33,044 nucleotides of DNA from contig NW_003155245.1 of NCBI RefSeq assembly GCF_000003605.2, positions 1-33,044 on the forward strand, given 5' to 3'. The notes under the pieces are model-generated. The model was given only the letters and a program-made list of their open reading frames with translations. It was not told the DNA's origin and did no database searches. The stretch is from Saccoglossus kowalevskii (lineage: Eukaryota; Hemichordata; Enteropneusta; Harrimaniidae). A program made the position numbers and the translations under genes. Below are positions 7,634 to 32,318 of this stretch, in pieces (the stretch's first letter is position 1; every line of letters begins with the position of its first letter).

Positions 7634-7805
7634 AAATATGATATAAAATATACCAACATTGGAAAATATTTGTTACGTAATTAGCGCATGGAACATAATC
7701 AATCTTGAAAGCAATGCAATCCAAAAGCCTATGCACAATCAAATATGGTTGCAAGATGTATAAGTGAACTCCATTGTTCATTAACATATCCACTTTTTAG
7801 ATGAT

Positions 7806-8458: not shown

Positions 8459-8714
8459 AGACTATGTGATGTACAGGAAATCCGATAGGTCAAAAATAAT
8501 ATTTCACTGAATAAACCCAAAACCAAGATGAAGTGTTATGTGAAAGTAACAAATCATACCCATCAAATCTTATAACGTCTTCTTGGAAAACGCCCTCCTC
8601 ACAGTCGAGCAGGTTGGACAGAAAAGACGTGAAAGATCATATATAAGATTGTTCTCATTCATCATGAGGCATTGGGAAATTAGTTTCTATAGATTTCTAT
8701 ATCTTATTTGTGTA

Positions 8715-8925
8715 ACGTGGGGTGTCAGTTGGACACTGAAACCTTAACGAGAATACGTAAGGGCATATTAACCGGTTGTGCACACTGTGTACATTTCATT
8801 ACCAGTGCGAACATGGTGGCACTGTGTTGCTGCCGGGATTTACCGATTGCAAATCGGAGTATTTCGGAATACCATCTGCCTAATAGGCGACGACAGACGC
8901 GTATTAATTTTGTGATATAACTACA
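8715..8925. other. Conserved CpG-bearing segment, upstream copy
   Basis: About 90 percent identical to 30150-30360 by eye. It includes a perfect 51-base run (8832-8882 = 30262-30312) holding two consecutive hairpins, CCGATT-GCA-AATCGG and GTATT-TCGG-AATAC. Both strands stay open for about 60 codons. The + frame contains LDTETLTRI and GCAHCVHFI, and the minus frame contains LLGRWYSEILRFAIGKSR. The + frame is shared by both copies only for its first half, and a small indel shifts it after that. I recognise no family. A decayed exon, a repeat fragment or a structured RNA are all possible. Confidence 0.35.
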
Positions 8926-9759
8926 ACTTCAGAAAAAGACGGATAACAAAAAAGAGGTTTTCTAGTAGATAAGAAAAATGGAGGATGGTATGCCTAAATT
9001 GAAAGACAAGATGACAACCTTCAATGTAAACAGAATCGATGTTACACTAGTGACGGCCACGTAAGATAAGTGATGTAAAACATGCATTTAGATGCAGTAG
9101 TTCTATATTCACAACAATAACACTCCCACTTGTATATGTTGTTTTGACGTTGAATTATATCTGGTTGAGGTGCGTGTGTGGTTAGTCATTTGGACAAGAT
9201 ATTAGCGCATGAGTTATAGATTGTTGTCAGTACTATCACGGGGCAAATGCCACTCGAGGCAAGGTTTTTTTACCTTGCATATTTATTATTTGTATTGCTG
9301 GGTGTACGACACATATGCAACAATTTCTCAACCAATGAACCATTCGAGTTTATTATAATGTTAAGATCAAGTGGATTACAGTGAAAGTTTTTGTTTAGTG
9401 ATCAGATTTAATTTGATGTTATTTTTCCTTGATTTTTTATAACTACACATTTCGGATTTGGAAGTATAATATAATTTGCATATTGCAAATTTAAAATATG
9501 TTAATGATTTGTGATGTGGGCAGACAATTGTGGATAGAAAAGTTGATATGAACTTAAATTTTGCTTTTTAACCATACTTGCAAAGATATTTCTTGGAGGG
9601 TTGGTCATATAATTAACATTTTATCCTGCAATCAACACTTCCCACACTTCCAATTTAAATAACAACGGTTAATCCGAGTCATATCGGTTCATGCAGTCAA
9701 CAGTTGTTCGCACAATATTGTTGCTATAGGAACAGTTCGCAAAAAAGCACATACGCAAG

Positions 9760-10611
9760 TGAAACTCGGGTATTTCGCGCACCAACTCCACCGCGAGATA
9801 TTTCGTTTTACGCACAATGGAGGACGTGGATAACCGGATTTGGGCTCCGGTGCGAATCTCCCAATTTCATAAATATAGTCGTATTCGAATCTCAAGCTAA
9901 CTAATTTGGCGTGGTGAGGAGCATACAGGCATTTATACCGCCTGGGGGAACGAACGACTGACTTGTCAAATAAAAATAAATGTAAGTGTTAAACAAATAA
10001 TTCATTCAATATAAGGATGCCATAACAACAACAGTTTCTGAACGTTACAAAATATGTGCCTCACAGAAAACATGCGGCAATGTCAATCCCACAAAAAGAG
10101 TCCACTCAGATCTGTCCAAGTTTAATCTTCGGCAATCGCCACACCAAACTGCCGAACGACGTAAACATATTATATTCAGTACCTCGTCGCCTCTGCCTCG
10201 CAGGTTTGGCTGCAATACGATCCGCAAAGCGTTCTTGGTACCTTCTGGGTTGTTTTTCTGATTCGTAGGAAATCGAATAAGTGCCTCTAACGGGTGTGCT
10301 ACGTGCATTTACGCCGACTTGGTGCTTTCCGAAACACGTTCGTGTTCACGGTTTCAAAGCAATCCCGCTTTCAGCTCCTGCCATTTTGTCTGTGTCCTGC
10401 ACCTTCTTCTCTTGCGCGCAGAATCGCGTGACATCCCGGGACGCACCAATCAGTGTAGCACGTCTCAACAGGCGTCAATCATGAGACCAAAACTTTTCCA
10501 TGACGTCACAAATACGGGTTACCATAATAAATAATGCACGAGCCCGTAGTAACAAGAAATATAAAGAAAACTACATTGATTTAAAGAAACAGTAAAATTA
10601 CCCTGGTTTCA
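9760..10611. mobile_element. 852-bp non-autonomous DNA transposon with TIRs
   Basis: The ends are inverted: TGAAACTCGGGTATTT at the left and the reverse complement TGAAACCAGGGTAATTT at the right. CAAG flanks both sides (9756-9759 and 10612-10615). The downstream duplication has a single uninterrupted site (GTAAGGCAATG near 31084), so it is an empty-site control for a precise insertion. The interior is richer in GC and CpG than the surroundings and holds no recognisable transposase. The minus-strand frame 10308-10045 (87 codons) matches no family I know. Confidence 0.8.
10441..10508 (-). promoter_or_regulatory. CRE and CCAAT cluster within the transposon
   Basis: A perfect CRE palindrome TGACGTCA (10501-10508) lies about 50 bp from an inverted CCAAT box (ACCAATCA on the + strand near 10447), in a CpG-rich context. 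Reading leftwards on the minus strand, an ATGGCAGGAGC start-like sequence follows at 10384. This looks like a housekeeping-type promoter plus first exon carried inside the element. The reading frame after that ATG is only 12 codons unless spliced. Confidence 0.4.
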
Positions 10612-11204
10612 CAAGGCAATGTTTATAAACATGATGTCTGCATTAAAAAGGGTCCGGAATCGTACCTTTGCCTCGAAAAGAAGTGTCACATTTTCTTTTA
10701 AACAAAAAATGCAATCGTAGACATTAGACCTCAATGAACGTACTATATATAAAACGTACTTCAGTCATTTAAACTAGGCCTGAGATAATAAATACAATTC
10801 TAAATAAAATTGACTTTTCACTCCTGGTTGACATATGTCCGTATTTTCTGAATTGTCATTTTTTGCCGAACATTATGGGTCAAAACATTCATGTAATTGC
10901 ATGGCTCATATCAACTATATCACTGTTACGGAATAACAAAAGTAACATTTTATAATATTATGATTATCAATTCTACTTTGTTTTCATATGATTTCTGGCC
11001 CAGAAAGCTGCGAATAATGTATCCATTTTCTAAAACCTTTACATTATGAAATTGAATAAAATTATTCAGTAAAACATTTATGTCTATCAGATGAGTGAAT
11101 ATATACTTGTTTCATTACATTTAATTTATGCATATTTGTGAAAAGATATGTATGTTATGATGTACTGCCGAGCCTTACACGATATCTGCATACTTCTGTT
11201 TCTA

Positions 11205-11600
11205 CTTCCGGCAGCCATTCACCCCAGGGGGATCACGCTTTCACCATGTGCATTCTTGCTAAAAAAAATAATAGGCCCCTAGGGCTGGCAGTACATTGGC
11301 AAACCATACCACCTATTGCGGACGCAATGTAAATTTAATACCCCTTAGAGCAGACATATTGAAGAAAAACACACAAAAACACCCACTATTGAGGACATCC
11401 AACCCCCTATTGCGAGCATTCTCTGTCGTTTTTTTACTTGTGGTTGTCGTGTATGCAACTCCTGTTGGTATCATTCGTTGTTTTATGGGTCCGCCAATTC
11501 GGGGCGTAGGGCGGTGTATGGGAGTGATTGTTGCAAGAGGGGCTCTACAGCGGCCTCACATAAAGATCGCACATGTGAACAAAGGAAACGCTGGAAGTGG
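11205..11600. other. Segment unlike the downstream copy, short motif repeated
   Basis: Between conserved flanks (ending near 11203/31589 and resuming near 11600/31740) the two copies carry different sequence. Here a short motif of the form C-C-x-C-[TA]-ATTG-[CA]-G recurs near 11308, 11379 and 11403. The overlapping frames 11296-11622 and 11478-11732 have no recognisable domain. Confidence 0.4.
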
Positions 11601-12633
11601 AAGTGTTCTACCTATAATATAACTTGGCCATGCAATCGTTATGAGACTCGGAGATGCGATGTAATAAATAATGATGTAATAAATAATTTCATTGTGTTTC
11701 CTTACAGAAATATAATTGAAAAAATTGATTAATGGTACGCAAATAGAAAATCATGGAAAATAAATAGTGTTACCATTATTTTGTAGGAAAATCATATTTT
11801 CAAAAAAACAAGTTACGACTTATGGTTACATCGTTAAAAAATAAAACTCAATTGTGTGTCACGAAATTCAATAAATCAATGTATGTTTCTTCTGAATGGA
11901 TGACATTTATAGTGATTGATGCCATTTAGTAAAAACTGTTGTTTATAATAACCCATGTTTCAATTGTGGATTTAGATGAAATATATTTGTATTGAAAGTA
12001 ATTATTTTGGATTATGGCTTTTAAGTACACATGATGCAACTAAAGCATGGTGATATTACCTCATAACTCAGAATTAGTGTAGGAACCACCATGGGACAGA
12101 GTGGTGCTGTAAGGGCGTAGCCCGAAGAAGCTTATGGTCATGTTTATAGTAACCCGAGTGACCAGAAATTGGTCAGTCGTATAGTCAAGGTGATGTTTTT
12201 GAGTTATTATGGACAAATGTCATTCATCACTTTCAAGTATTTTTGAAAAATTTCTATGACAATTTAAGCTTTTCACAATATAGAATAGTAACATGTGACG
12301 ATTTCAAAGTGCCAAATCAAAGAAATAGCAATAGTACAGAAGCTAATAGATGAAAAACAATGCGAACATAAAAGTTCTCTGTAAAGCAGTATAATTTTCA
12401 TTTGTGATTGTTTTGTGACATTCCTTAATTCATACGAAATAAATATTGTACAACATGCATTTTGTCAGTTGTATGTCAAACACAGAGAATGTGAATGTGT
12501 TATTTTACTGGTATACCAATTGTATATCTATATTAAAGTAATGCCATATAATACATAGTGTAGCTTTAAAATACACATACAGTTTGTTTAATTGATTTTT
12601 GTTTGTATATATTGTCGAAGCAGGGACATATAA

Positions 12634-12655
12634 TCTGTCTGTCTGTCTGTCTGTA

Positions 12656-12719
<64 letters not shown>
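12634..12719. repeat. (CTGT)n microsatellite
   Basis: About 21 tetranucleotide repeats with one ATGT interruption near 12653. The 83-codon frame across it (LSVC repeats) is a consequence of the repeat, not a gene. Confidence 0.98.
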
Positions 12720-13536
12720 CATCGTCATTTTTCAGAGCCCTCTTGACCGTATCTATTCATTCATTGCCTGTATCTAGTATGTGGGACATATGCACATGCA
12801 GTGGTTTAGTAATCCGATTCAAGATGGCCGACTGGCAGTCATTTTTTTAAGAAAATGTATTATTATGGACATGCTTTGATTTTTTTGTGAAATTTGGTGC
12901 ATACATAATACATGTTAGAATAAATGTTCAGAACAATTTGTTTTACAACCAGATTACAGATATTTAAGTAATGTTTTTTTGAAAATGTCTCAGTTTACTA
13001 CATTTGCTACAAACTAGACGTTAAGCATTATGTGATTTCAACATAAGGTATTAAATTTAGTAAATGCATATATAGTGTATCCAATTCTCATGTTTAGCTT
13101 GACTTACAATGTCTGAGGTGTAGAACCTCGTTAATGTTGATGTACACTAATTTTATTCTGAGCAAATGCAACAGGTGGATTATTGATTGCTAATAAGGTC
13201 AATGTATTGTTGAACCTGTCAACATTTCTCTGAACTGTTGAGCATGTGATACAGGTTATAATAAACAAGTTGAAGATTAGTTCATTTAATTGTAATATTA
13301 AGAAAGTGTTTGTCCATCAATATATATTAATCATGTACTTATGATATGACCATGTTTTACCATCAATTAAGATGGCATGAGAATGTTTTACTATCATTGG
13401 AGAAGTTGTGAACATGTTATAGTTATCAATGTAAATATATAAACTAATTCTGCTGTCACTGAACACGCATTGACTGGGCTATCAATATACCGTTTATCTT
13501 CTTTTTTGACGGTCCATATTGTTCTTAAATCATGTT

Positions 13537-13814
13537 GGTTATGAATAACCATGATTTGATCATGTTNNNNNNNNNNNNNNNNNNNNNNNNNNNNNNNNNN
13601 NNNNNNNNNNNNNNNNNNNNNNNNNNNNNNNNNNNNNNNNNNNNNNNNNNNNNNNNNNNNNNNNNNNNNNNNNNNNNNNNNNNNNNNNNNNNNNNNNNNN
13701 NNNNNNNNNNNNNNNNNNNNNNNNNNNNNNNNNNNNNNNNNNNNNNNNNNNNNNNNNNNNNNNNNNNNNNNNNNNNNNNNNNNNGGTTATGAATAACCAT
13801 GATTTGATCATGTT
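13537..13814. repeat. 30-bp hairpin minisatellite interrupted by gap
   Basis: An identical 30-base unit lies on each side of the N run (13537-13566 and 13785-13814). It contains two dyads, GGTTAT-GA-ATAACC and CATGAT-TTG-ATCATG, so single strands can fold into paired hairpins. The left unit is preceded by CATGTT, which also ends the unit, as in a tandem array of period 30. Confidence 0.85.
13567..13784. other. Assembly gap (218 N)
   Basis: Unknown sequence. Because the same 30-base unit borders both sides, the gap probably stands for a collapsed tandem array, and its true length may differ. Frames predicted across it are artefacts. Confidence 0.99.
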
Positions 13815-14130
13815 AAAACATGTTTCGTCATCAGAAAAGCTTAATGATTGTTTATATGTTTCGTTCTGGTGTGGAGCACAGATAATGTGGATATTTTATT
13901 TGAATAAAATAGCGCAGGTAATAAGCTATAATTATATGAAAGACATGCAACCGTACTAGTACTTGGCTCTGAAACGAAAAATTGAATACAGAATGTTCTC
14001 TGTTCTGCCATTTAGCTATGAACATTACAAATACGGCGTTAATAGTAATGCTTTTTAGCTTTAGCTTTCGAGACTGTGATAACTTGTGAACAGTAGCTAT
14101 GTTTGAAGTGAGGTAATGCATGTAATACAA

Positions 14131-15308
14131 GCCGGTAGGCTGGTTGGCGATTCGCTCCGCTCAAAAAACAAGCAACATGTTTTTGGCTGTTTCCATGGTA
14201 AGACATGAACGCGAAGCTAACGTCGGTTTATAACTAAATGGGCCCCGTATACGAAGTTCTCAAAAACTATACAGTCTTTAGAAGTCACTTAGTTTATTAC
14301 TAGGACGTATTTTGCTATTACATTTATTATTTCAAACTGTTTTGCGATAGTATTTTCTAGAATGAAGGTAGCATTCATAGTTCATTCAAAGTTCAAAGTT
14401 GCATTGGGATTACGTTGATACAGTGTAACTATGTCGGCGCCGGTGACCTCTTACTAATGCGCAAAGTAGCCAAAATAAAAAGCATGATCATTTGAACACT
14501 GCTATTACAAAACGGGTAGGAGGTAATAAATTTGGCGCGAAAGTATTCAAAAATCAGTTTTTGGCTCTTGCAATGGCAGTGGTTGGCCAGGATTGTTTTC
14601 CAATCATTGACGGTACGACCTTAACTGTCAAATATGGACAAGATCAAAAAAACAAAAAAAATCACAGAGGAGTTAAAAGCCGTTGCTGGTGAAAAGTTAC
14701 CCCAACTTTGTGGTAAATTTTCTCGTTAATGAAAATATACATGAAAAAAAAACAGTAACTTTTTGCCCACACTCAAGCTGAGTTCAATTGGCTACTAGTA
14801 TGTCCTTGCTTTTTAATCATAGAACTGTAGGGTGAGATACATTTAGTGCAAAGGTATGGAAAAAAACAACAGTTTTTTGATGTTGCCATGGAAACGAAGG
14901 ACCAAAGTTTGTTTTCAGATGTTTCAATCTAACTAGAGTGAATGTGTGTCTTTTTTGCCCAGTTTAAACCGAATCGGCCCAGTCAAAACAATCACAGAAG
15001 AGTTAAAATGCCATTCCTGGTGAACAGTTACCCCAAATTTTGGGTCAAATTTCTCGGTAATGAAAAAATATATTAAAATATTCAAATAGTAACTTTGTGC
15101 CTACACTCAAGCTGAGTAAAATGAGCTATGTCTGAGGTGTTTTATCCTAAATTTGTAGGAGGATATACATTTGGCTGTTTCTATGGCAACGGTGTGCCAA
15201 AATTTTCCCTAATAACTAAGGTGAAAGTGTGACCTAACTGCCAAGTTTGAGCGAAATCGGCCAAGCCCAAAAAATCATTGAAGTAATAATACGTGGAAAC
15301 ACTGGAAA

Positions 15309-15349
<41 letters not shown>

Positions 15350-15353
15350 TCGC
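14131..15353. mobile_element. Repeat-type insertion with internal period near 310-380 bp
   Basis: Absent from the downstream copy, which joins the equivalents of about 14130 and 15355 directly. Inside, a motif like TTTTGGCTGTTTCCATGG recurs near 14178, 14558, 14868 and 15168. The associated blocks ATCACAGAGGAGTTAAAA (14660, 14990) and ACTCAAGCTGAG (about 14770, 15106) recur too. It ends next to a (CA)n tract. This fits an internally repetitive non-autonomous element. I could not assign a class. Confidence 0.6.
15310..15346. repeat. (CA)n microsatellite
   Basis: About 18 CA dinucleotides at the right edge of the repeat-type insertion. Frames of CVCVCV on the minus strand are repeat artefacts. 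Confidence 0.98.
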
Positions 15354-15774
15354 CAATAACTACTACAAATTGATGTAATGATGCAAAATGCATGGCTGAC
15401 TCTTCTTAGGGGGTTGTTTTGAAGAGAATCGAATACAAAGGAGATGTATATAGAAAGTTGCAGGGATAGAATATAGTGGACGTCAACATAAATAATTAGC
15501 TTAAATGTAAACATCGTTACTTTAGTGAAGGACTTGTGAAAGAACTGTATACATATAATCTGATGCAGTAAATCTGATATCCACGTTATTACGAACGTTC
15601 GTGTTATGTGCTCAAGATCCCAAATTATATTTCATTTAAAATGTTTAGTGATATACCTGGGTGTGGTGGTTGAGGTAATCATTTCTGGAGAAAATGCTAC
15701 TAATGTAATTCTTGAAGAATTGTTCGGACACTGCTCAAATAAATGTTGAGGGTGGATGGATGGGTCTGTGTTTG

Positions 15775-17032: not shown

Positions 17033-17096
17033 ATGTTACATGTGCTCGTGATTTTCGCGGTTACCAGTGTTACTCTAGCAGCCCCCAAAGAGATAG
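17033..17096 (+). CDS. Exon 1: signal peptide
   Basis: The peptide is [16 protein letters not shown] followed by APKEI: a short N-region with one His, a hydrophobic core and a small-residue cleavage site. The frame stays open past the donor to 17161, so an unspliced product would be a 42-residue peptide. Splicing at ATAG|GTTTAC (phase 1) joins GT-A to make Val and enters the lectin domain in frame. Confidence 0.72.
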
Positions 17097-20000
17097 GTTT
17101 ACTGCCTTATTCATCACCTCAAATGTATTCTACTATGTCTATGTCTACTAGCCATGTTTAATTTTCATATCAATTATTTAACTTTATTTGTGTATACTAA
17201 TGTTATATAGTGTCGCCTACGTTTGCGTTGTCTTAATAGATACGTCATCGCCATTGACTACCATAAAAAACAAACAAAGCGCTGTGTTATAGTTCAATGT
17301 CCAAACCTCAATACCACAAAAGAACTTTATTTACTACTAATGTCTACCACCCATTTACTGTGGTGGCCAGTTTTACATACTTACATCTTATAAATAATGT
17401 AAACTTAAACACACAAGTTGAGATATGACGTTAAACATTAACAGAGATTGGAAATTGATTTTAGTGTGAATTTGCAAAGTACCATACATCCATATAATGA
17501 AGTGAAATAATAACGACAAAAAACATCAGTAGAACAGCCTGAGTTCAAAAACAAAAACAAGTACTATAAACCATTTCAACGGACAACTAACTACAAACTA
17601 AAGTTCAACATGCTTCTTGAATTTGAGCATTGATCCAAATTGATTTAGTTTCGTGTCAGGTGAGGTAGTCATATTATGTGTACCCCACCCCGTCTTCACC
17701 ATTAGACCGGATCACGAATAAATTATTACTTTTAAACAAGAGAGTCAAAACGATTTAAAATATGGTCATCCTGAGAAATTAAAGTAAGATAAATGTTATG
17801 CTTGTTGGTCAGTAATGCTGGCGTGAAAAGCGGCGAATTAGTTGTGAAAACTTGCTTTTATTATTTATTTTTTGGTAAAATGACGACGACGATTTTTTGG
17901 TTAAATGAAAATTTTATTTTATTCAGTTCATCATTTGAAGGGATAGAGAATGCGAGCAAGTATTGCCTAAAAATAAACATGTTGATATTCTATTGTTTTC
18001 CTCAACATTGTTCTGCGTCGCGAAATGACGGGCTCGTCAATGACATCGGTATCTGCACTTGCATTGCACAAGAGGTTGTGTTACTAGACAATTTTGTGGC
18101 GTTCGTGGTAATCAGTTCTAGTCTTATTTTAACAGCTATTATGAGTCTAAAATTAGTGTCTATCGACTGTGTTTTTCCAACCAGGGCCATGCTTGTGAAT
18201 TTAATTGTGGGTCAAATGTGAAAATGACGACAGTATCATTTTTATAAATTATTAAAATACAGACACATTTGATCCTGTCTGTAGATTTGCTGTCTATTCT
18301 ATTCCCTTGATTTCTGTAAACTATTTCTACACATTTTTCTGATTTTTTAATATCACCATTACACATGATTCTTACAAAATATTAGATTAAACTTACCATT
18401 CCAATTGCAGAATTCATAGTTTATTTGTATGGCATTTATATTAAAAGTGCTTTTAAACCAGCCTTCGAAAATCTATTGACAGCTATCGGATGTATTATGA
18501 AGCATCGATATAGTCCTCTGATTTGTTTTAAAAGCCACTAACTGTGTGGCAAACACTTAGATACTTTTGGCAAGACAGCCACTGTGTGGGTTTGGGTACT
18601 GATCTGTGCCATTATATACAAACAATTGGCAGATTGCATGTTCCATGCTGAGGTGTCATTGTTCCCCGGTTTGAATATGGGAATTGATATCTGGTCTCTG
18701 TTCAATATTGTATTGTCAAAATGGCTTCTCGTCGTGCCTGACCAGATGCACAATAATAACAGTATTTCAGTGATACCCGGATTCCACTCGAGTTGTTTGG
18801 ACTAATAATAAAACATCGTGTTACACCGTGTTGCATAATTACCTAACTGATTGTGTGTAGAATCAGGGGTTAACATTTGTCATGATAAATATGACATTCG
18901 TGTTTCATATAAATGTTGTTTAATACCACTTCTTAACGGATGGCAGCATTCCATCTGTACTGTACTGTTGGAGACAATTAATTTTGAAGTATATATTTCA
19001 ATGACTTCTCATTTATTTATATGGTATGGTTTATACATGTGTCGTAAAATACAAATAAAATAATTTATGATTTAAACAATGAACCCTCGAATATTATTAA
19101 CACATCGACCAAACTCATGTGTGTCGCACTGATATATATTTAAGTGTGTCTGCTTTTTGGTTGTTTACAGACGTTGGTTAAGAAGTCAGGTAGGTAAAAA
19201 TATCGTTTGTAGGAATCATCAATATTGTAATATTATTCGGTAATTTAATTTAATTCTACATATCTAAATTACAGTGTATGATATCATGGCTCCATCTATC
19301 GCATCCGATCAGTAAATTATTTGCATTCAATTCAGGAAGTGTTTTTTTCTGATGTAACATTTTCGACTTAATTCAAAGTCTACTCAATGCCATTGTATTG
19401 AAATAATAGTAAGGCCTGTCAATCATGTTTGTTTACGTAGTTAAGGCCAGACTTTTTTATTCCTTGTTTCGCGAGTTTTTATAAGACAATTTTTTTGAGG
19501 AGGGCGAAAAAAAATTGAATTAATTCTTTTTTTCCATTAGATTGTGTGATTCTCAAAGAATTGTAAGTGAGATCATTGATCGGAGAGAAGAAATGAAATA
19601 AAATGTTATTCCATATATAACCTTGTTTCTCATCTGCGCTAGACTTCAGTACTTTGATCATGATACTCCCACGAAAATGCAACTCGGATTTGTTATGCGG
19701 CGGGCGGTTAAAAAATGAAGATAAAAATAATATTTTTTTTAGCATTTTTTGTGTGCTAACAAGTCGGCGGGCGCGAGAAATTACGCTGAAATAAAATTAT
19801 ATTTTTATTTCATTTTTCGGCTCCTGTTCATTCGGCGGGTTCGCGAAACAAGGGATAATAAAAGTCTGGCCTAAGCGTGTCATCAACTTAGACAGAAGAA
19901 TTCCCTGTCACTTTTCAGCTTTCATACATATCAACAATAACGTTTTTCGTTATTTAGTACCACGGTATGAAGTAGTGAATGGTCCAATGACATGGTTTGA

Positions 20001-22561
20001 TGCCAAAACAGAATGTGCAAATAGAGGTGGCGCACTTGCAGAACCACGCAACCAGGCGGAAAACGATGCATTAGTGGCATTGTATGTCTCAGGTAAGTTT
20101 GCAAACACGTAATTGTTTCTAGTCTAAGCGGCGTAGAATAACTGATTCAACTAATTAGTCTGTTTTATAATTGTTTTACAGTCCTAATCGTAATATTTAT
20201 TTCCCATCTAATAATTTATTTTCACAAGGACGATATTGGCTTGGTATTACCGATGTAAACCACGAAGGGAGGTTCACGTACGCCAGAGACGATTCTGATA
20301 TTGTATACAGTAAGTGGGATGTTGGTGAGCCAAATAATGGAGGGGGGGAGCGAACACTGTACAGAATTGTGGTAAGTTGATTATCATATGTGTTCATAAC
20401 ACGTTAAATGAACAAATGAGGAATTCATTATTTTAGTTTAAATAAATATTTGTAATGCAGAATTAACAAATTCAAATGAGGTTGCATGAGACTCACTAAC
20501 AATGGAATAATCAATGGTAATTGTAGCTTTGCACATGGTCTTCATGTGAATGCATCAATCATTATTTTGTATTTTGTGTTAACAAAAAACACTTATATTA
20601 AACAGGAAAGCCGAGGGGTTATGGAATGATGTTCCCTGTTCCCTCAGCTTGGGACATGCGATCTGTCAGTTCGGTAAGTTTGGTGCTTTACATTACAATA
20701 TGAAAACATGATTTTCTCAACAGACAAGCTAATTGAATTAAAATGTACCAAAACATTTATTCCATTCGATGCAAAGGTTTGTTTTTAAAGAAGAAAAGCA
20801 TGTCGGGCAAAATGTATTTTGCCTTTACAGTAGGAAAACCAGTATTTTTAGTGTGGTTTGACAATTCCCAAACAAACACAATTAGTACAATATGAAACAG
20901 CTATAACATAAGATTATACACAGATTATTTAGATAAAAATGACCTTCGGTAAGTTGAGGAAAAACTTAATATCGTTTGCAATTGGCCCATTAATACCACT
21001 GACGATTGGTCAAAATTGGTTATTAAACAGCCTGGCGTTTCCCAAATTGACATTAAACTTAGTAGTTAGAAAATGCGATTTTAGTTTCCGATAGACTACT
21101 TAAATTTATATTTTTATGTCATGTATCTTACAATAGATTATTTGAGTTAATAACCATGTTTGTGATATATTTACTACAAAGATCTTTCCTATAATTGAAG
21201 TTGTCATTTTTCATGTCTTTTAAACTCATATATACAAGTCTAAAAAACCATGTACTAAATTATTAACTTAATACTTTCTATGTACAGTAATAGTTACTTT
21301 ATTTACAATGCTCATCATACATCAAACGGAAAGTGTGCCATGCCGATCGTAATAGTCATACATTGTTTAAACAACACATATTCTATGTATTTTACACCAA
21401 CTTCCAATGTTGCACTTAATCTGGGCTATATATTGAAAACGAAATCAAAATGACCATATATTGTACTTTTCAGCAAATTTAAATCCTGGTGTTCGTGGTG
21501 ATCCTCATATGACGACATTCGATGGACGTGCATATGCTTTCCAAGGCACATGCTGGTACACACTTTTTAAAGACTGTTCCTCAAATTCTGGCTTCGAAGT
21601 TACTACTAAGTTTGAGTCAAGAAAAGATAACATTTCTGCAGAAATAAGAACGAGAGTTGTTTCGTTCAGCGTTACAGTTGGGAAGCAATATGCTGTTGTT
21701 GATGGACTGGAAATTTTAACAGTAAGTTTTAAATATGTACAAATTTGTAGTGAATATCATTGATGCTTAATGTGCGGAGGACATGAAATTAATAAACAAA
21801 CATTCTAAACAATTTATTCATCACAGGGGCCGACTGATGAGCAACTGAATGAAACACAAGCAATTCATGTCCATAGAGAAGACAAACAAATCCTTCTGCA
21901 CTTCACTTTGCAAGACACAACATTCACTCTGCAGTGGACTTTAAGAAACCATGGTCTAAGTGTTTCCTATTATGGCTCTGCTTACAACGGTAAACTATGC
22001 GGTTTGATGGGAAATGCTGACGGGAATCCTCTTAATGACTTTAAAAATCCTGATGGCAGTGTTGTACGAGACGTTGACGAGTTTGGAAAGAGCTGGAAAT
22101 TAGAAGGCAAAAAGTATGTACTTGTATTCTTTTTCACAAATAAGTTTGACCAATTAGAGTGTGTTCAACGACTTGAAATAAACTCTAGACTAATATAAGT
22201 ATGGCATAGGCATATCGTCTTAAAAACAAACTCGTCTTTGAAAAATTTAAATCAGGTCTCACTCCAGTCAAAAAACCTAAATATAAATGTGTTTGGTTTA
22301 CCTACTTGCAGAAGAAGTCCTATTTTATTTTGCTTAAATTAATGTCCTTTTCAAACATTGAGCATACATGTTAATTCACAACAGGCATCTGGTATAGCGT
22401 GTGTTACCAATAGAAGCAATTTTGAAATTTTGGAAATTATTTATCGATAATTAAATAAAGACAAATTGTTCTGCAGTTGATAGCCATAAGCCCAGAAATT
22501 CGGAGTGACATTTCACAAATATAGTTTGGTTGGCAGTCAATTGGTGAAGTTGAGTTACAAA

Positions 22562-22608
<47 letters not shown>

Positions 22609-22844
22609 GGAACCACATGTTGTAACACAACATAGGCAGCAATAGACCTTATTTGAGTACGTCAATGGATGTATTCACTGGCTTTGTCTTATGAAAAAGC
22701 AATGGAAAGTATGAATTGTAGAGGCAGTATGAACATCACAATTTGTATGTATGCATATACATATGATAAATTGTCATTCTTTCAAAAGTTTTAAAAGTGT
22801 TGAACTAATTGATTTCAATATTTTAATGTTGCAGCTGTGACTGA
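17033..22844 (+). CDS. Secreted C-type lectin + VWD domain protein, seven exons
   Basis: The coding exons are 17033-17096, 19958-20092, 20229-20371, 20606-20673, 21474-21721, 21827-22113 and 22835-22844 (955 nt). Intron phases agree at every junction. Residues 1-16 are a signal peptide (VLVIFAV core, cut after TLA). Residues about 22-136 are a C-type lectin domain and about 137-317 a VWD domain, ending in a tiny exon that supplies the last Cys and the stop. The product is probably an extracellular carbohydrate-binding protein used in innate immunity, mucus or biomineral matrix; that role is inferred. One base must be removed from a G7 run in exon 3 to keep the frame. After this the total is 954 nt, exactly 318 codons. 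The exon 1 donor (GTTTAC) is weak. Confidence 0.85.
17162..19441. other. Intron 1, no supported genes
   Basis: The longest frame of the window (17793-18221 +, 142 codons) lies here, with overlapping minus-strand frames at 18002-18366 and 18538-18753. None shows a domain, splice context or promoter that I recognise. The 18000-18200 part is less AT-rich than its surroundings. Confidence 0.5.
19445..19871. mobile_element. PIF/Harbinger-like MITE, 427 bp
   Basis: Terminal inverted repeats of about 34 bp begin GGCCAGACTTTT and continue to CTTGTTTCGCGA at both ends. The 3-bp target-site duplication TAA flanks the element at 19442-19444 and 19872-19874. A TAA/TTA 3-bp duplication with GG-starting ends is typical of PIF/Harbinger (Tourist-like) elements. 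There is no transposase, so it is non-autonomous. It sits in intron 1 of the lectin-VWD gene, about 85 bp before the exon 2 acceptor. Confidence 0.88.
19958..20673 (+). CDS. Exons 2-4: C-type lectin domain
   Basis: Exon 2 (19958-20092) gives [10 protein letters not shown], the helix and first Cys of the fold. Exon 3 (20229-20371) gives YWLGITD, the WIGL-type core, then WDVGEPNN with the EPN motif linked to mannose-type binding. Exon 4 (20606-20673) gives LWNDVPC and the last Cys in HAICQF. The four canonical cysteines are present (about residues 41, 110, 125 and 134), as is WND, which contributes Ca2+ ligands. Exon 3 as written shifts frame at G7 (20342-20348). With six G it reads [10 protein letters not shown] and joins exon 4 in phase 2. 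An upstream acceptor at 20181 would put exon 3 out of phase, so 20229 is preferred. Confidence 0.85.
21474..22113 (+). CDS. Exons 5-6: VWD domain
   Basis: Exon 5 (21474-21721) opens with [20 protein letters not shown], the signature start of VWD domains. Exon 6 (21827-22113) contains [17 protein letters not shown], matching the Ca2+-binding GNxDGxxxxDF region. In that stretch the usual CGLCG has become CGLMG, so one disulfide partner is missing. The domain closes with [10 protein letters not shown]. No C8 or TIL modules follow, unlike in mucins, von Willebrand factor or BMPER. Exon 6 can read through its donor to a stop at 22196-22198, which would give an alternative tail (YVLVFFF...). Confidence 0.9.
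22481..22656. mobile_element. (TA)n-bearing insertion with TTGA target duplication
   Basis: Relative to the upstream copy (GCAGTCGAGTACG at about 4823), this copy has about 176 extra bases bordered by TTGA on both sides (22477-22480 and 22653-22656). The insertion holds a TA microsatellite (22564-22605) and a perfect hairpin ATGTTGT-AAC-ACAACAT near its right end. It sits in intron 6 of the lectin-VWD gene. I could not assign a class. Confidence 0.65.
22564..22605. repeat. (TA)n microsatellite
   Basis: About 21 TA dinucleotides inside the insertion in intron 6. Confidence 0.97.
22835..22844 (+). CDS. Exon 7: tiny terminal coding exon
   Basis: After the acceptor GTTGCAG, the ten bases CTGTGACTGA complete an Asn codon split in phase 2 and add Cys, Asp and stop, so the protein ends GKNCD. 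The final Cys fits the closing Cys of VWD domains. The same exon and acceptor are kept in the pseudogene at 4988-4997. Confidence 0.72.
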
Positions 22845-23074
22845 CATATCTTATGTCAAGAAGACTTGCTGCTCTCATCAGTTGTAGCTTATTCAGACAA
22901 TAATTTAATGTTAGTGATGGTGATTATACTTTACTCAGCTCAGACTGACTGGATGCATGACAGGGAAAACATTGCATGTAAATCGTAAACAGTATATACT
23001 ACATTCCAAACGGAATTGGTTTATTGGTACTTGTTGGTAGTTTAGTGAAATCATGTCAGTAGACCATTAAGTTA

Positions 23075-23080
23075 AATAAA
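23075..23080 (+). terminator. Poly(A) signal AATAAA
   Basis: Canonical hexamer about 230 bases after the stop codon of the lectin-VWD gene. The pseudogene copy lacks it at the matching place. Confidence 0.5.
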
Positions 23081-24069
23081 CAGCTTGCACAATAACAACT
23101 ATTGCGTTTGAGTACATTTCATTTCTCTATTCATTTGAATTGTACCTTTCCACAGAGAACATTCTCCACTAAGCTATCAAACGACAAAGGCCTAACTGAC
23201 TGTGCATCACTTTCTCTCTCTAAGTTGACATCAATCATAATAATGAAACTGATTCGACATATTCAAAGCGTCGTTAGTAATTGATAGAAGAACAGTCATT
23301 CGTAAAACTTGTATACAAAATACGCCAGCTATGAACTTTCAAGTGCATTTTTTTACTTGCAGTTTGAATTGGCCATCTGGCAAAAATGTCTAATTAAAAA
23401 TTCAATTGATAAGTTGCAAGATAAGATTTCCCCATCTACAGACTGCAAAATTACATTTAATAGCCCTGGTCATCCCCATCTTACTTCTCTGCTCCCTACT
23501 CATTTAAGCATGGTTGTATGTTTACGTCAGTGGTGTTTAGATACCTGATTTTGTGAAATGGCCCAGTTTTCCATAACCTAGTGTCAACTACAGCTGGGTG
23601 TGTTATCAGCTTCACTGGTAATCAAGTACGGGTTACTTCTGACCAACCTCAATTTAAAGCAATTCATACCGCCTTCAACCACGGTGTATACAATATTTTG
23701 CACCAATGTCTGTGATCAATGTCAATGCATTTGATCGAACCATTGTAGAGATTGAATTTATATTTCCTTTATTCCATTCTATTGTATTCAAAAGTGATGT
23801 TTTACTCGCTGTATGTCACTATCATAGAAACACGGTACACTGACTTTCTTTAGTCTGATTCAAATCACTGTTGTTCCCCTACATAGCTGACATAAGTGTT
23901 TATTCTTATTGATGTGACAAAATCTATGCATTCTTGTACTAAGCCGTAATTTGTTTTAAACCCTACAAATTAATGTTTAGGGTGGGGAAAATTGAGATTA
24001 ACCAACACTGTGGTTCGAGTGCGGCAGTGCACTAACATTAGTTTTGTGGCGAATCTCTAAATTGAACAA

Positions 24070-24750
24070 ATTGTTATCAGTGGTTAATTTGGTAAAACGT
24101 GGTGAGAGGCCAATTGCATTAGCGGGAGAGGCTCGATTTTATCAGTAATATTAGAGCTAAACATGGACATCAATATATCTGTCATTACTATGGTGATCCT
24201 GCATTAGAGCAGCATTTCATCAGTTACTAGGGTGACATGGCTAAAGTACAGAACTGTTCACTGATGGGTATGGTGAACGGGAGCTTCATTGTATCAAAGA
24301 TTAGGTTGGAAGTAAAACATTTTATCTGTGCTTGAAGTACTGCTGTCAAAGTCGAGTATCATCCATTGTATGATGAGCAAAGGTTAAGTAGCAGAAACTC
24401 ATCTATGGTTATAAAGACAAAGCTGGTTAATGGTGGTGAAATTGGCTTAGAGTAGCATGTTATCATTGATTACAGGGGTGAAGCAGAGATGGCTTAGCTG
24501 TTGTCACATGTTGAACAGCCTGAGGACGAATGCCATTCTATCAAGGAGGGGCTGGGTTTCATTCTATCAGTGGATATTATGAAGAAGCTTGGAAGGTCCA
24601 CTATTATGTCAGCGTTTTTGGTGCTGAGACTGAATGAAGAAAGCAAACATGGGGTGAAACAGCATTATATTATTGATTCCATTGGAAAAGCTGAGGTGAA
24701 GTTAGATCACAGTGGCAATGCTTGCTTTACCATTGATAACATGTGAGGCC
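24070..24750. repeat. Degenerate minisatellite, period about 40 bp
   Basis: Blocks of the type CATTTTATCAGTGATTA-x-GGTGA-x-(GC)AG recur about every 35-48 bases, e.g. near 24134, 24175, 24210, 24250, 24320 and 24460, with strong divergence between units. The 81-codon frame 24501-24746 lies inside and is most likely a product of the repeat. It starts just after the segmental duplication block ends. Confidence 0.6.
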
Positions 24751-25500
24751 TGATAAACAAGTGCTACTATCAAAAAGTAACATAAGTAACATAATTTATA
24801 TCGACCTACAGCAACTAAATTATAATCAGTGAGTTTTTAATGTAATCAAATACTTCAAACTGAGTATTCTCTATGTTGACTACGGAATTCAAGACAAACA
24901 ATTTTGATGAAAATACATGCTATGGCAGTGAACATAGTTGCACTCTTTTATGGGTTGTTGGCAATGAAACATTGCCCACAGCAATTAAAACAATTTGGTT
25001 TAGTATCATATAACGTTCATAATAATTGTGGTAGTTCTTTTTGCAGGATGTATTGAAAGTAATATGTGCCATAAAAGCATACTTTAATGTAATAAGTGTG
25101 AATAACGGTACATTAAATATATAGAAAAAAGGGGCACTAAACCCCTGTCCTGAAGCGAGATATATGCGATGTTTTTGTGCAATGGTTTGTTCTACACAAC
25201 ATCATACTCGGTTTAAATGGAAACTCTGAAACTGTTTTGTACCTCTGGACAATGATCCGTGGTACATCGTGGCCATTTCACAATGTAATCTCATCCTTAC
25301 AATTAATTAAATAAAAATCTAGTTATTAGTCTTATTTTTGACTCGCTGTTAACGTAATTCTGTACTATGGTATTGGTGATATATGAATTGGGTGCCATAG
25401 GATGGTACTTGATGGCCAACCAACCTAATCAAATATGCATCTTGCTTTGTACGAGTGCAAAATAAGTTATTAGGAAATTAGGATATTATTATATTAGTAC
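24751..25500. other. AT-rich stretch, no supported gene
   Basis: No exon or RNA gene recognised. It includes the first of three copies of a 21-23 bp motif at 25254-25276. Confidence 0.5.
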
Positions 25501-25512
25501 CAGCTGTTTTAT

Positions 25513-25598
25513 ACGCATGCGCATTGGCCGATCTCAAATCAAATCTCGTCGTCTGTTTTGGGGGTGTCTTGTCGATGTGAAATTCCTTCCGCTATTGG
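25513..25598 (+). promoter_or_regulatory. NRF1 + CCAAT promoter-like cluster
   Basis: ACGCATGCGCA (25513-25523) matches the palindromic NRF1-type site and overlaps an inverted CCAAT box (ATTGG, 25523-25527). A second ATTGG is at 25594-25598. The local GC and CpG content is higher than in flanking DNA, and an ATG with a good context follows 70 bp downstream. This is typical of a TATA-less housekeeping promoter, in contrast to the TATA promoter of the lectin gene. Confidence 0.5.
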
Positions 25599-25667
25599 GT
25601 GACGGAATTAACTGGTGTCTGTGTGAAAACTGCTGAAAAAAAAATCTTGTCCAGAATATGATTTTAA

Positions 25668-25753
25668 ATGGCCGAACTTAAACAGATATCAGTCTCGTAT
25701 TGCAAAGCATGTTTCCGGGAAGGAGAGGTATCGAGGTGGCGTAGCTTGTCATG
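25668..25753 (+). CDS. Probable first coding exon of an unidentified gene
   Basis: AAATGGCC gives a favourable start. The frame reads MAELKQISVSYCKACFREGE and continues to ...RSLS, then ends at CATG|GTGAGT, a near-perfect donor (phase 2). Without splicing it would stop two codons later. The promoter-like cluster just upstream supports it. A Cys-x-x-Cys pair is present, but I recognise no family, and no downstream exon could be chosen with confidence before the window turns uninformative. The minus-strand frame over the same bases (25846-25664) is taken as a shadow. Confidence 0.4.
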
Positions 25754-26519
25754 GTGAGTAGATTTCCTCTCAGGACGCCGAGTTGGGCGTCGATACCGAG
25801 AGGGAGGCGGTGAATATGGTGTCGAGCGACCAACATAGTAAACCAAACTTAGAACTTGGGATACTGGTGCAGACGACTATGGTTCAACAACCATGAAAAT
25901 TAAATGGCGGGACTTTGGTGTTGCACATTTAGCACAGAAATAAAAGACACGCCAACAGTTGGACAACCAGTCATTTTATTATTGGTCACGATGTACCTCG
26001 GATCATCTCCATGTCCTTTGTGAACATACACGATGTGCTGCCATCCAATGACGGGATGAGCGGCTTCCTTTGTACACAATCAGCGTCAATTCCATTTGCT
26101 AAGCCAGACCGTCTGGTGGCGCCCTACTAATTCATCAATAAACCAATATACTAAGTAAACTTCGCATGCACAAATATCATATAAAATAGGCCTAATATAC
26201 TAATGTTGTATTTATTTAATTTTAAGAACGAGTTTACATCCTGGAATGGCCATGATGTACCACGGATCGACAATATATGCACAGGGATGTTATTCTAATC
26301 TGCTTAGAGGCGGCCTCTATACAGAGTTGCAGTTGCCTTCAATTCAGTGGCTTCCACCCATTTATTTATATATGTCCTTGTATTATGTATCATCTAATCA
26401 GAGTCTCTCCCCAATGTATATATGCGTGTCCATTTCATTAGTGTGCATGACAGGCATGTCTTTCCTCAAAAGCAAAACCTTCCCTAGATTCGCCGAAAGT
26501 TGGTGTTCACCAATACGGT

Positions 26520-29509
26520 AAATATATTTCGCAAATTATTACATCGTTCACGTCCTCATAGCATCATCTAGGTAAGAATATGTTCGAAAATGACATACAT
26601 GTATTTTATATCAGTCTACCTAGATATTCCCTGTTTCAACATATAGATTTGCCATTTCAGGATATATAACTCAAGACTGAACATCTTAAAGTATATATCA
26701 GGTATAACAAAAAACTTTCTGGCATAATCTCTGCTTAAAATTCAGTTACAAAAAAGTATATATGAGCTTTAAATCCCAAATGTATATTTCCTTAGTGATG
26801 CTACCACATGGTGAACAAACAATTCATACACCAACCTCTATTATACCATATTTACGAATGGTACTTTTTCTCAAATGATCATCTACTACGTTAGGGCTCC
26901 TACTGATTGTGATAATTGTATAATTATAGGTCAGAAGATTAATTCCCATCTAATCATTATGACGTTGTTGGACCGATCCCAGTTTGTGAAGCATATGTTC
27001 TTAGTACAAAGATTTTGTTTTAATATATGGTTCTTACTAAGATTATTAGATAAAGTTTATTTCATTATTTCAGAATCAAACCCCATATATACAATTAAAC
27101 CTTGGTAAATTTATATTTTATAGTTTTCAAGTACGTCAGCTTATGCTTGAAGAGAACACTTAATTATGCAAATGTTATGTATTATGATTTTATATTTGTT
27201 TTTCTTTACTTGTTTCTGCGACCATTCCAATCTAATTTATTATGTATTTATTTGTATCTGTACATAAGGCCAATGGCCACAGTACGAAATAAAAGATATA
27301 TATACTAAGATTCATTTCCAGTTGACCAAAATCAAGTTGTTGATTTTGTTTCTAATGTATATAGGTCTTGAACTGTCTCATTTTGGTAAGATTGGTCAGG
27401 GGGTAGAGCGTCAACCTCATCCCTAACAGTTTTCACTTCTCCCCTCCCAGCTTGTGACCCCAAAGCTCTAATCGCGTAAAACCACACAACATTATGGAAG
27501 TTTTGCAATAAGCCTAATCTTCTCACGGAATTCAAAATGTCTGTAAGAGTTTTCTTATTAGATTTCAATTTTGTTATATATTACATTATCTTCTACATAA
27601 CTTTCCACATCTTCCCCCACCCCTCGGAATATGTTGCAGAACTATTGACTAAGTAAATGAAGAGGAATTATACTGAAAAGGGTGACATGGAATAAAGTCT
27701 GTTTTTGCCGTTGCATTGGGAAATTTGTCAAAACTCAAATAGTGCCCCCCGTACTTGTGTATGATTATTATTACTACTATTATTAGTGCAAAATGAATGA
27801 GTTGCTTGTATTTACCGGAACAACTGAAGATGCAAAGAGAGAGCCTGATCTTTCTATTATCTCCATTTCGAATATGACTTGAACTTAACACTATGAAAAA
27901 GGCTTTCTGTTATCGACAATGTGAATTTATTTAGTTTTTTGGTAAAAAAACCCTGAAAAGCTGATTTTGAAAAGGTAATTCAGAAATTTATGTTAATAAT
28001 TTATAACGAAATGTATTTCCTATAAATAATTTTCATAATTACCGGTTACACAATATTACAGAAAAAAGATAATGTGTTACATTCTCGCCTTTCGTTTGTT
28101 TTCAATTATGGCTGAAAGTAGCTGAAATTACAAAATATGTAGTTTTTCAGCAACTTATGTATGAACAATAACTTTAATAAATATTTTTTGTATGAATAAT
28201 TTCACAATGTCAAACACGGAGTTGTTACTTCCTTAATTGCAGCCTCCGGACTGGCAAGATGGTGGCATAAAGCTTAGAGCACAATGGTTGAGCACAATGG
28301 CAGACAATAAAAACCCCTGTTGGTTCACATTTAGACTTCAAATGTCTACAGAATTTTCTGTAGTTTCTTTATTCTCATAAAGATAAACATTCTATCAACT
28401 CTCCTAATTTATGGTAAGTACCATCAGGACCATCAACATAATTATCATATGGCTGGGTCTCTGACAAGCACATGTGCACAGCACACACACTTTTATGATA
28501 AAGTGATAAAATATTAATTTACCATTTTGATTCTATAATCGACTGAAACAACCCGTTCAATAACTTTATAAGGTTACTTCCATTGTATTTTCAATTTATT
28601 ATTAAATGTTGGGAGTAGTAATTATATCACCCGGTCACACTCTTTTGAGTGTTCTAGGCCTTCTTGTCAAAATATTGTATATCTCTCAATGTTTGCCTGT
28701 ACTTTCTGTGACATCTAGTCAGAATCAACACATAATCATTGTATGCTTAAAATAGACATCGCTACCATTACAGTCTAGACATACAACAGTTGGATATTCG
28801 AAAATCCAAAAATAACTATGAAGACTCATAGTGAGCAAATACAAAGTGTGAAATCGATCTTTCCTTTCACAACCGTATGAACATATTCATAAACGTTCCA
28901 GTACATTTTCGAACCAAACCATTTGCCTGAGGTAGTAGGGACAAGTATTGAGTTGCTCCATGAACAACAGTATAATCAATATAGCGCCCCTGGAATTATA
29001 TAGTCAGCTATGCTAAATACTCAATCGCAAGAAATATGTATCTGAATTCTCCCCACTTCTTACAGAGGTCTTGATCCCAGTACAATAGTCGTTATAAGAA
29101 CTTTGAGTTCTCTGAGAATTGTTCAGTAACTTAAACGTTTTCTCAATGTCTGTTATTGTTTGACTATCATCCATCAATGAACAGAGCAGAGCACGTGACT
29201 CGTTTTGTGGGAGGCGGATATTTTATTGTTAAATTTTGTTCAATCATTGTTCAACACCCAGACGGGTAGTGCCGCAGAAATATTGTGCATTGTTACCTTT
29301 GTTCATACATTTCAGAGGCGATCCAGACAGATTAATCACGAAAATGCTTTTGCCAGTTGAGGCAAGATGGTAAAAACTTGTTTCACTTAACTTATTCTAC
29401 ATTTGGTGTGGCCACGTTGTGTCGAAATAAATACATAACGCTTTGTCAGTATTTCAGAGAAGATGTCATCATTTGGTATTAATATTAATAATAACCCGTC
29501 CATTCTCAA
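26520..29509. other. Long AT-rich interval without supported genes
   Basis: No exon, RNA gene or clear repeat boundary. The minus-strand frame 27568-27332 has a protein-like mix of charged and polar residues (GEVKTVRDEVDALPPDQSYQ) but no recognisable domain or splice context. This interval has no counterpart by eye in the upstream unit, so it probably holds insertions specific to this unit. Confidence 0.45.
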
Positions 29510-29644
29510 TAAAATAACATTGCATACCATTAAAATAAAAGTTTCACTAACGAGTTTTACTTACAAATGTCATAAAATTGACACACCAAATAAAGAAATA
29601 AATGCTCTCTATTTTATTTGCTCTCTGTCATGAAAGTAATAACG

Positions 29645-29652
29645 TGACGTCA
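29645..29652. promoter_or_regulatory. Perfect CRE palindrome TGACGTCA
   Basis: Conserved counterpart of 7466-7473, within AACGTGACGTCAACTAAAC in both copies. Function unproven. Confidence 0.35.
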
Positions 29653-32147
29653 ACTAAACTAACAATTCAGTGACACTATGATGAATCATAACGAAACATG
29701 GATTAACCATGTAACAGCGCCACCACATGAATGTCTAACTTTAGACTAATTCGAGCGCTGTCTTGACTTTAGCTTTCTTCTTAAAATCATTGTCGTATTC
29801 ACTTGATACTTTGAAATATATAATACTCTGAATATATCAGTATTCGAAATGTTTGTTACGTAATTAGCTCATGTAACATAATCAATCTTGAATGTGATTC
29901 AATCCAAAACCCTATACACAATCAAATATAGTTGCAAGTGAATTTCATTGTCCATTAAAATATTCACTTTTTAGATGATATTGTGCGATGTAAGCACAAT
30001 ATAGGTCGAAATAATACTTCACCGAATACACAAAAACAAGATGAAGTGTTAAGTGAAAGTAACAAATCATACCAATCAAACTTATCTGATCTTCTTAGAA
30101 AGCGCCCTCCAACTTTATTTGTATAACGTGAGGTGTTATTAGAACGGCTACGCGAGTTGGACACCGAAACGTTAACGAGAATACATAACGGTATATTAAC
30201 CGGTTGTGCACACTGTGTACATTTCATTAACAGTGCGAACATATGGTGCCACTGTGTTGCGGCCGGGATTTACCGATTGCAAATCGGAGTATTTCGGAAT
30301 ACCATCTGCCTAGTAGGCGACAAAGGACGCGTATTAAATCTTGTGATATAACTACAGCTTCAGAAAAAACGATAATGAAGGGGTTTTCCTAGATAAAAAA
30401 AATGCAGGATGTTGTGACTAAATTGAAGGACAAGATGACAACCTTCAATGTAAATGGATGTTACAATAATGACGGTCATGTAAGATATGAAACTTGCTAT
30501 CAGGTGCAGTAATTCTATATTCACATCATATGTTGTTTGATGTTGATTAAATCTTGTTGAGGTGCGTGTGTGGTTAGTCACTTGGACAACAAATTAGCCA
30601 GAGTTATAGATTGTTGTCAGTACTATCTCGATTTTTTTATTTTGCATAATTGATATTTTGAACAGATCGAGTTTATGTTGGTGTTAAGATCAAGTGGATT
30701 TCAGTGACAGTTTTTGTTTAGTGATTAGATTTAATTTCAAGTACACATATCGGATTTTGAAGTAAAATATGATTTGCTTATTGCAAATTTAAAATTGTTA
30801 TCAATATGTTAATGATTTGTGATGTACTAAATAGTGGAGGAGAAATTATGAATTGAAAAGTGTATTCATCATGCTGTTGATATGAACTTATATTTTGCTT
30901 TTTAATCTTACTTGCAATGATATTGCTTGATAGATAGGTCACATAAGTAACATTTTATCCTGTAATCAACACTTCCCACATTCCCAATTCAAAAGGCACC
31001 AGATAATCCAAGTCATACTGGTTCATGCAGTTTGTTCGCACAATATTTTTGCTATAGGAACAGATCGCAAAACAGCACATTCGTAAGGCAATGTTTATGA
31101 ACATGATGTCTGCATTAAAATGGACAACATATGTTTTTAACTTCTTTGCATGATCCGGAATCGTACTCTTTTCACAAAAGTAAGTGTTCCCAATGTACTG
31201 TTTTTTTTATAAAACGTACTTCAATTATTCAAACCAGGCCTGAGATCAACGCTCTTAAATAAAATTGACTTATGACATTTCACTCGAGTCCTCCTGGTTG
31301 ACATATATATGTCCATAGTTTCTGAATTTTCATTTGTTGCCGAGAATTATGGTTCTAAACATTCATGTAATTACATGGCTCATATCAACAACAATAGCAA
31401 TAAAGTAACACTCAGACAATTGTCTGATTATCAATTCTACTTTATTTTCATATGATTTCTAGCTGGAAATAATGTATCCATTTTCTAAAATATTACATTA
31501 TGAAATTGATTAAAATTATTCTGTAAAACATTTATGTATGATGTACCGCCGAGCCTTACAAGATATCTGCATACTTCTGTTTCTACTTCCCGGTTGTGAG
31601 CTGAAGTTACATTCCCACTGTGAATGATCTATTGACAGCCGTTCACTTAGCTCGTTCAAGCACCATGAACGTTTTGGGTTATTTAAAGCTAATAGGAAAC
31701 TTTAGCAGGCCCGCGTCACATAATAATCACACTTGTGCTCAGAGATGCGATAAATGCATTTCTTTTAGATTGGGCCAACACGTGATGTTATCAATAATGC
31801 ATCTTGGTGATCAATAATAATAATGTGTCTCCTTACAGAAATATACCTACAATGGAAATCCATGCTTAATGGTACACATAAAAAAATATAGAAAATAAAT
31901 AGTATTACCGTTACTTTGTAGGAGATCATATTTTCAAAAACAAGTCACGACTTATGCTTACAGTGTTAAAAGATAAAACTCAATTCTGTGTCACCAAATT
32001 CAATAAATCAGCGTATGGTTCTTCTGAATGGATGACATTTATAGTGGTTGATGCCATTTAGTTGTTTATAATAACCCATGTTTCAATTGTGGGTTTAGAT
32101 GAAATATGTTTTTATTAAAAGTGATTATTTTGGATTACGGCTTTTAA

Positions 32148-32318
32148 GCACACATGATGCAACTAAAACACGTTTATATTACCTCATAACTCAGAATTAG
32201 TGTAGGAACCACCATGGGACAGAGTAGTGATGTGAGGGCATAGCCCGAAGAAGCTTAACACACATGATGCAACTGAAACACGGTGATATAACCTCATAAC
32301 TCAAAATTAGACTATGTT
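32148..32318. repeat. Short tandem duplication, period about 110 bp
   Basis: The block CACACATGATGCAACT followed by ACCTCATAACTC occurs twice, near 32150-32200 and 32260-32310. The upstream segmental copy has it once (about 12028-12080), so the duplication happened after the two units separated. Confidence 0.75.

Follow-up and report, generated by a model that had tools for sequence, protein, structure and literature searches.

The 33,044-nt stretch analyzed here (hereafter the window) comprises positions 1 to 33,044 of contig NW_003155245.1 from the hemichordate Saccoglossus kowalevskii, and contains a gene of seven exons on the forward strand, separated by six introns that all have GT-AG borders (each junction was inspected; Table 1). 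The best reading of these exons is a small secreted lectin carrying one von Willebrand factor type D (VWD) domain, without C8, TIL, or EGF modules. Introns and domains together suggest an animal origin, and we consider it probable, with room for doubt, that this is an animal gene for a protein comprised of a signal peptide, a single Ca2+-dependent, mannose-type C-type lectin domain (CTLD), a linker of about eight residues, and a C-terminal VWD domain that may cleave itself at a GDPH motif.

Table 1. Features of the gene and of the surrounding tandem duplication.
Feature	Position	Strand	Observation
Left-hand copy of the duplication	3085..15743	+	
Dead VWD copy, without recognizable lectin exons (tblastn)	3616..4997	+	Exon 5 lacks its beginning, with acceptor and GDPH; two one-base frameshifts and two stops
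Exon 1: start codon and predicted signal peptide (16 residues)	17033..17096	+	Donor weak, 4/9; signal peptide judged by eye and hydrophobicity only
Exon 2: first part of the CTLD, preceded by a phase-1 intron	19958..20092	+	Lectin_C E 7.5e-05 alone
Exon 3: middle of the lectin, EPN motif	20229..20371	+	Lectin_C E 0.036 alone, which misses the cut-off; 1.3e-17 for the whole protein
Seven-G run, frame lost here	20342..20348	+	GGGGGGG in exon 3
Exon 4: WND and final two lectin cysteines; phase-1 intron follows, counting past the G run	20606..20673	+	22 residues, no Pfam match alone
Right-hand copy of the duplication; starts in intron 4, after the lectin exons and before those of VWD	20954..33000	+	
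Exon 5: first half of VWD	21474..21721	+	VWD E 1.2e-13 alone
GDPH, residues 145-148, presumed cut D146/P147	21497..21508	+	Sequence; motif function per PMC10880436
Exon 6: second half of VWD, CGLM (21998-22009) replacing CGLC, GNADG loop	21827..22113	+	VWD E 5.6e-08 alone
Exon 7: 10 bases encoding the last cysteine (C316), D317, and stop	22835..22844	+	Same sequence in the duplicate copy, acceptor included
Poly-A signal AATAAA	23075..23080	+	About 230 nt past the stop

The seven exons and six introns of the initial annotation hold at these coordinates. Donors of the five exons 2 to 6 agree with 7-9 of 9 consensus positions (exon 4, for example, ends TTCG/GTAAGT, 7/9), and the acceptors have 7-11 pyrimidines in 13 positions, the weakest being that of exon 4 (7, at 20606). 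Phase-1 introns lie on either side of lectin exons 2 to 4, and the VWD exons keep that phase once past the G run. The putative signal peptide of exon 1 has an Ala-rich end. A search of 12001-19957 for alternative first exons gave 14 start-donor pairs, one of which (start at 16021) has a better donor (7/9), although its signal peptide is less convincing by eye than that of exon 1. At the other end, exon 7 is supported because it supplies C316 as a partner for C163. A protein extending beyond exon 7 was ruled out by the stop codon at 22842-22844, the AATAAA at 23075, and the lack of any later domain up to 33044 in a six-frame scan, which also missed the lectin exons. Directly 5' of exon 1, a 108-base unit is repeated 1.8 times (16730-16926).

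Both domains are real, because each is matched in Pfam as well as in the PDB. Pfam was run on the spliced protein, with an X where two reading frames meet: Lectin_C (PF00059) matched residues 31-136 (E 1.3e-17; 64.9 bits against a cut-off of 22.6; profile positions 2-107 of 107), and VWD (PF00094) matched residues 143-296 (E 2e-24; 87.1 bits against 22.9; profile positions 3-155 of 156). When exons 2 to 6 were run singly, exons 2, 5, and 6 passed the cut-off of the expected family. The VWD half matched FCGBP, VWF, and mucins in the PDB, with 8rde (FCGBP) as the best match; for the lectin half, three chains of multi-lectin receptors rank first, and the best single-lectin chains are collectins. 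The motifs reported previously (EPN, WND, the four lectin cysteines, GDPHM, and GNADG) are all present. Ca2+ site 2 of a C-type lectin is defined by EPN, a Glu, and WND; read across the frame break, the site here is EPNNGGXSEHC...WNDVPC, and EPNNGGXSEHC aligns without gaps with the EPN...EDC site of mannose-binding protein. In this family, the EPN/WND set is expected to confer Ca2+-dependent, mannose-type binding, and mannose-type sugar binding would thus fit the site predicted here.

The lack of C8 and TIL modules was likewise confirmed, as neither was found in the spliced protein or in six-frame Pfam scans of the whole window (E 0.01), scans that also missed the lectin exons. These scans recovered VWD alone, at two places (exons 5-6 and near 3614-3790, the latter within the tandem duplication described below); the lectin exons went unseen as short pieces in a frame of ∼1,900 residues, so other short exons could escape too and their absence is unproven. 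No convincing tblastn match to a second lectin was obtained in the window, nor were there any RNA families (Rfam, gathering threshold) or tRNAs in it, and no relatives were found among viral contigs. Prokaryote genomes gave three VWD-only matches, in contigs of metagenome-assembled genomes (MAGs) of Lishizhenia, Saccharospirillum, and Fluviicola (46, 27, and 44% identity in the best segment, respectively); the VWD-like stretches of those three MAG contigs are either bacterial VWD domains or contamination.

The gene lies across the edge of a tandem segmental duplication of ∼12 kb, in which the two copies match in order over 15 blocks of 71-95% identity (one of them a local repeat), with insertions and deletions. 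Nothing is shared to the left of 3085 and 20954 (blastn at E 0.01 aligned no part of 1-3084 with 15744-20953), and the breakpoint is therefore placed in intron 4, which separates the lectin half from the VWD half, and attests a recombination event there. The left copy contains exons 5-7 only, and has lost 54 nt, including the exon 5 acceptor and GDPH. It also carries three smaller deletions (two of one base and one of nine bases) and, in the frame of the right-hand gene, two stops. Exon 7 and its acceptor are identical in both copies. Among the best-kept stretches outside the gene is 8727-8907 / 30155-30337 (93-94% identity), which has no Pfam match (E 0.01) and no Rfam match.

This arrangement allows for two further histories. 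In one, the left copy is a duplicate that was truncated; in the other, the VWD tail came to lie behind the lectin exons through the duplication itself. The second case, a young chimeric gene, agrees with the breakpoint inside intron 4, with the unmatched left flanks, and with the ∼10% divergence of the copies; a 5'-truncated copy of an older fusion would look alike, however, and Pfam recognized no upstream exons of an original VWD gene in 1-3084, so we regard a young fusion as rather unlikely. It is more doubtful still that the exon sets belong to two genes, namely a stand-alone lectin (exons 1-4, reading through the last donor) and an unjoined VWD relic. The breakpoint does fall between the two sets, and the upstream copy has VWD exons without lectin exons detectable by tblastn, but the exon 4 donor is 7/9, the exon 5 acceptor is good and matches in phase past the G run, and each of the two domain models is matched by the joined product from one end to the other.

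Several results weigh against a working two-domain gene. The exon 1 donor (TAG/GTTTAC) is weak, and 75% of all GT in the window score as well. The seven exons do not join in phase as had been claimed: their lengths total 955 nt (1 modulo 3), and because exon 3 carries seven G the frame is lost inside the lectin, where literal translation stops at codon 122. The lectin resumes in the next frame, starting inside the G run, and the 317 residues correspond to 954 nt, one base fewer than written, with one G of the run uncounted. Under none of the splice choices tried does the sequence as written encode a standard lectin with four cysteines and the EPN site. For intron 3, 17 of 126 donor-acceptor pairs reopen the literal frame to the stop and all 17 lose the EHC cysteine; for exon 3, three of 13 acceptors reopen the frame, but without the EPN part. 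The earlier description of the gene as complete was accordingly too strong, in view of the interrupted literal frame and the weak first junction.

If the seven G are correct, the gene could be spliced around them, for example from the main donor (20372) to an acceptor at 20616, ten bases on, which gives 314 residues and a lectin lacking the EHC cysteine, or by skipping exons 2-4, which leaves a signal peptide and VWD of 202 residues. In the literal sequence, neither of these readings is interrupted before the final stop codon. Nevertheless, the acceptor at 20616 is poor (3/13 pyrimidines, compared with 7 at 20606), and the lectin would be left without part of its Ca2+ site and without a conserved cysteine, which makes splicing around the run very unlikely.

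The remaining points against the gene come from the divergence of the two copies. Over the VWD exons, nonsynonymous divergence (dN) is 0.100 and synonymous divergence (dS) 0.160 (35 and 15 changes), a ratio of 0.63, and exons 5-6 differ at 50 of 484 positions (10.3%), compared with 10.5% in intron 4. With intron 4 (0.113) as the neutral yardstick, omega for the right copy is ∼0.8, and Poisson probabilities of 0.001 for full constraint, 0.026 for an omega of 0.25, and 0.17 for an omega of 0.5 disfavor strong constraint. With the synonymous-site yardstick, omega for the right copy is ∼0.26 if the left copy is neutral; constraint then fits (0.074, 0.42) and its absence does not (P 0.004). The outcome depends, in short, on the yardstick chosen. 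Exons 5 and 6 also differ from each other (Fisher P 0.0015). Disabling lesions in the VWD exons number five in the left copy and none in the right, and this count points to constraint on the right copy, though five events are few.

The same divergence bears on whether the window holds a real null allele or a young pseudogene, truncated in the lectin by the seven-G run. We regard this as a serious possibility, albeit on balance an unlikely one. It takes the sequence literally, and agrees with the pairwise dN/dS, the intron-like divergence of the exons, and the death of the neighboring copy. Set against it, one homopolymer base aside, 318 codons are open across seven exons, the splice signals and eight cysteines are intact, and the lesions in VWD exons are confined to the other copy. 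Because the rest of the 318 codons are open, the frame break at the G run more likely reflects an error in the assembly or a null allele of recent origin than a long-dead gene.

Returning to the probable two-domain protein, its most distinctive feature is the GDPH motif at the first turn of the VWD domain. The linker between lectin and GDPH (residues 137-144) is eight residues long. Since C134 is followed by no other cysteine before C163, the first VWD strand, ahead of GDPH, has none. Both FCGBP domains that are shown that far upstream in the PDB alignments have a cysteine before GDPH. Similarly, the CGLM here (Met280) stands in place of the CGLC found in all seven distinct VWF and FCGBP domains with this stretch shown. 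We take the second cysteine of CGLC to be the partner of the first-strand tether cysteine; the loss of both would be the pattern expected if the bond were lost as a unit. The protein has eight cysteines in all, every one of which can be paired inside the two domains; of the four in the VWD, C171 could pair with C277, as in VWF. H148 and C163 are 15 residues apart, as are H4082 and C4097 in FCGBP D10, and a C163-C316 pair would fit the C4097-C4255 disulfide of that domain (PMC10880436).

In FCGBP, Asp-Pro cleavage at GDPH is spontaneous, and the mutants D4080N and H4082N are uncleaved (PMC10880436). Some cleaved VWD domains keep their first strand by a disulfide, while others are without it, in which case the cut might in principle break the protein apart (PMC10880436). 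In the present protein, en route to secretion, the VWD domain may cut itself between Asp146 and Pro147, like GDPH-type VWD domains. Because no cysteine lies between the last cysteine of the lectin and GDPH, either strand pairing alone would then keep the two pieces together, or they would separate. The result would be a lectin that binds glycans and that a Ca2+-binding VWD domain either retains or lets go; mucus, an adhesive secretion, and surface immunity are the most plausible settings for it. For the same reason, GDPH being present with no cysteine from the lectin to GDPH to tether the pieces, the motifs favor a self-cleaving pro-lectin over a disulfide-assembled polymer.

A more specific proposal, which we put forward tentatively, is that VWD serves as a built-in autoprocessing C-terminal domain: it would cut at GDPH during folding or in the acid secretory granule and, without a tether, free an intact mannose-type lectin ending ...VRGD. 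More speculatively, the freshly cut Asp might couple the lectin to its target. That cleavage of FCGBP D10 raised its protease resistance (PMC10880436) counts against the self-cleaving reading.

The initial annotation had suggested a self-assembling lectin. Proteins that polymerize do contain VWD domains (PMC10880436), and multivalency would presumably suit a lectin with a single site. Assembly in the manner of VWF or mucins is nonetheless highly improbable, given that no C8 or TIL was found, that CGLC is lost, and that the cysteine count is even and can be paired internally; it was dropped as the principal explanation for want of C8/TIL and CGLC.

Among known proteins, the collectins (MBP, SP-D, and conglutinin) provide the closest single-lectin chains in the PDB. 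Collectins have an EPN mannose-type site and trimerize via collagen and neck regions, both of which are absent here. For the VWD half, FCGBP domains share the GDPH motif (11/13) and the cysteine 15 residues past the His, but differ in possessing tether cysteines and, for 12 of the 13, in being part of a full D assembly (PMC10880436). MUC4, a transmembrane mucin, and RGMB, a Neogenin ligand, are described in the same source (PMC10880436) and also have a GDPH-type VWD that belongs to no D assembly; their partner domains are other than those found here.

The combination of the two domains has precedents in adhesive proteins. In Macrostomum adhesion protein 1 (Mlig-ap1) and its relatives, a lectin is followed by a vWD, as here, and this constant core continues with C8, TIL, and EGF modules (PMC8621496, PMC6410801). 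Those proteins have C8, TIL, and 7-18 EGF modules after vWD (some assemblies are incomplete) and, in the marine M. lignano, long charged flanks, whereas no domain was found after VWD in the present protein. P-vulgata_1, from the adhesive of the limpet Patella vulgata (PMC7333891), likewise has a vWFD and a C-type lectin-like domain in one secreted protein, but has 1854 residues (in a record without a start codon), with two vWFD, six EGF, a cystine knot, and three Kazal domains; the comparison is of domain content and not of order. The sea star protein Sfp1 is secreted, contains VWD, is cleaved autocatalytically into subunits (cleavage is a prediction here), and has sugar-binding lectin domains; it differs in its length (3853 residues), in the vWD-C8-TIL arrangement of three of its four subunits, and in having lectin domains of the galactose-binding type (PMC9382459, PMC8621496, PMC6410801).

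A two-domain lectin-VWD protein was not found in the partial literature searched, and the main text of two papers on bivalve lectins (PMC10140915, PMC12842671) contains no word that starts with VWD and no "von Willebrand." The pairing of lectin and VWD is not new, and the minimal two-domain form without a tether is a compact variant of a known architecture. The form was initially described as unusual, and this is accurate as to its compactness, but lectin-then-vWD already occurs in Macrostomum ap1 (PMC8621496) and both domains occur in the limpet adhesive protein (PMC7333891). The 317-residue protein is compact by comparison with the known underwater-adhesive architectures to which it is related, and with two domains, a sugar-binding half that can be assayed, and no tether, it would offer a small test system. 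Its parts are otherwise ordinary and their order compact; GDPH without a tether is the one property that is both testable and of interest.

Three minor features lie elsewhere in the window. A satellite array occupies its left edge (1-649; 6.1 copies of a 107-base unit), and a run of N at 13567-13784 (a gap or masked sequence) yields spurious long open reading frames in mechanical lists. A TCTG microsatellite of 21.5 units is located at 12634-12719.

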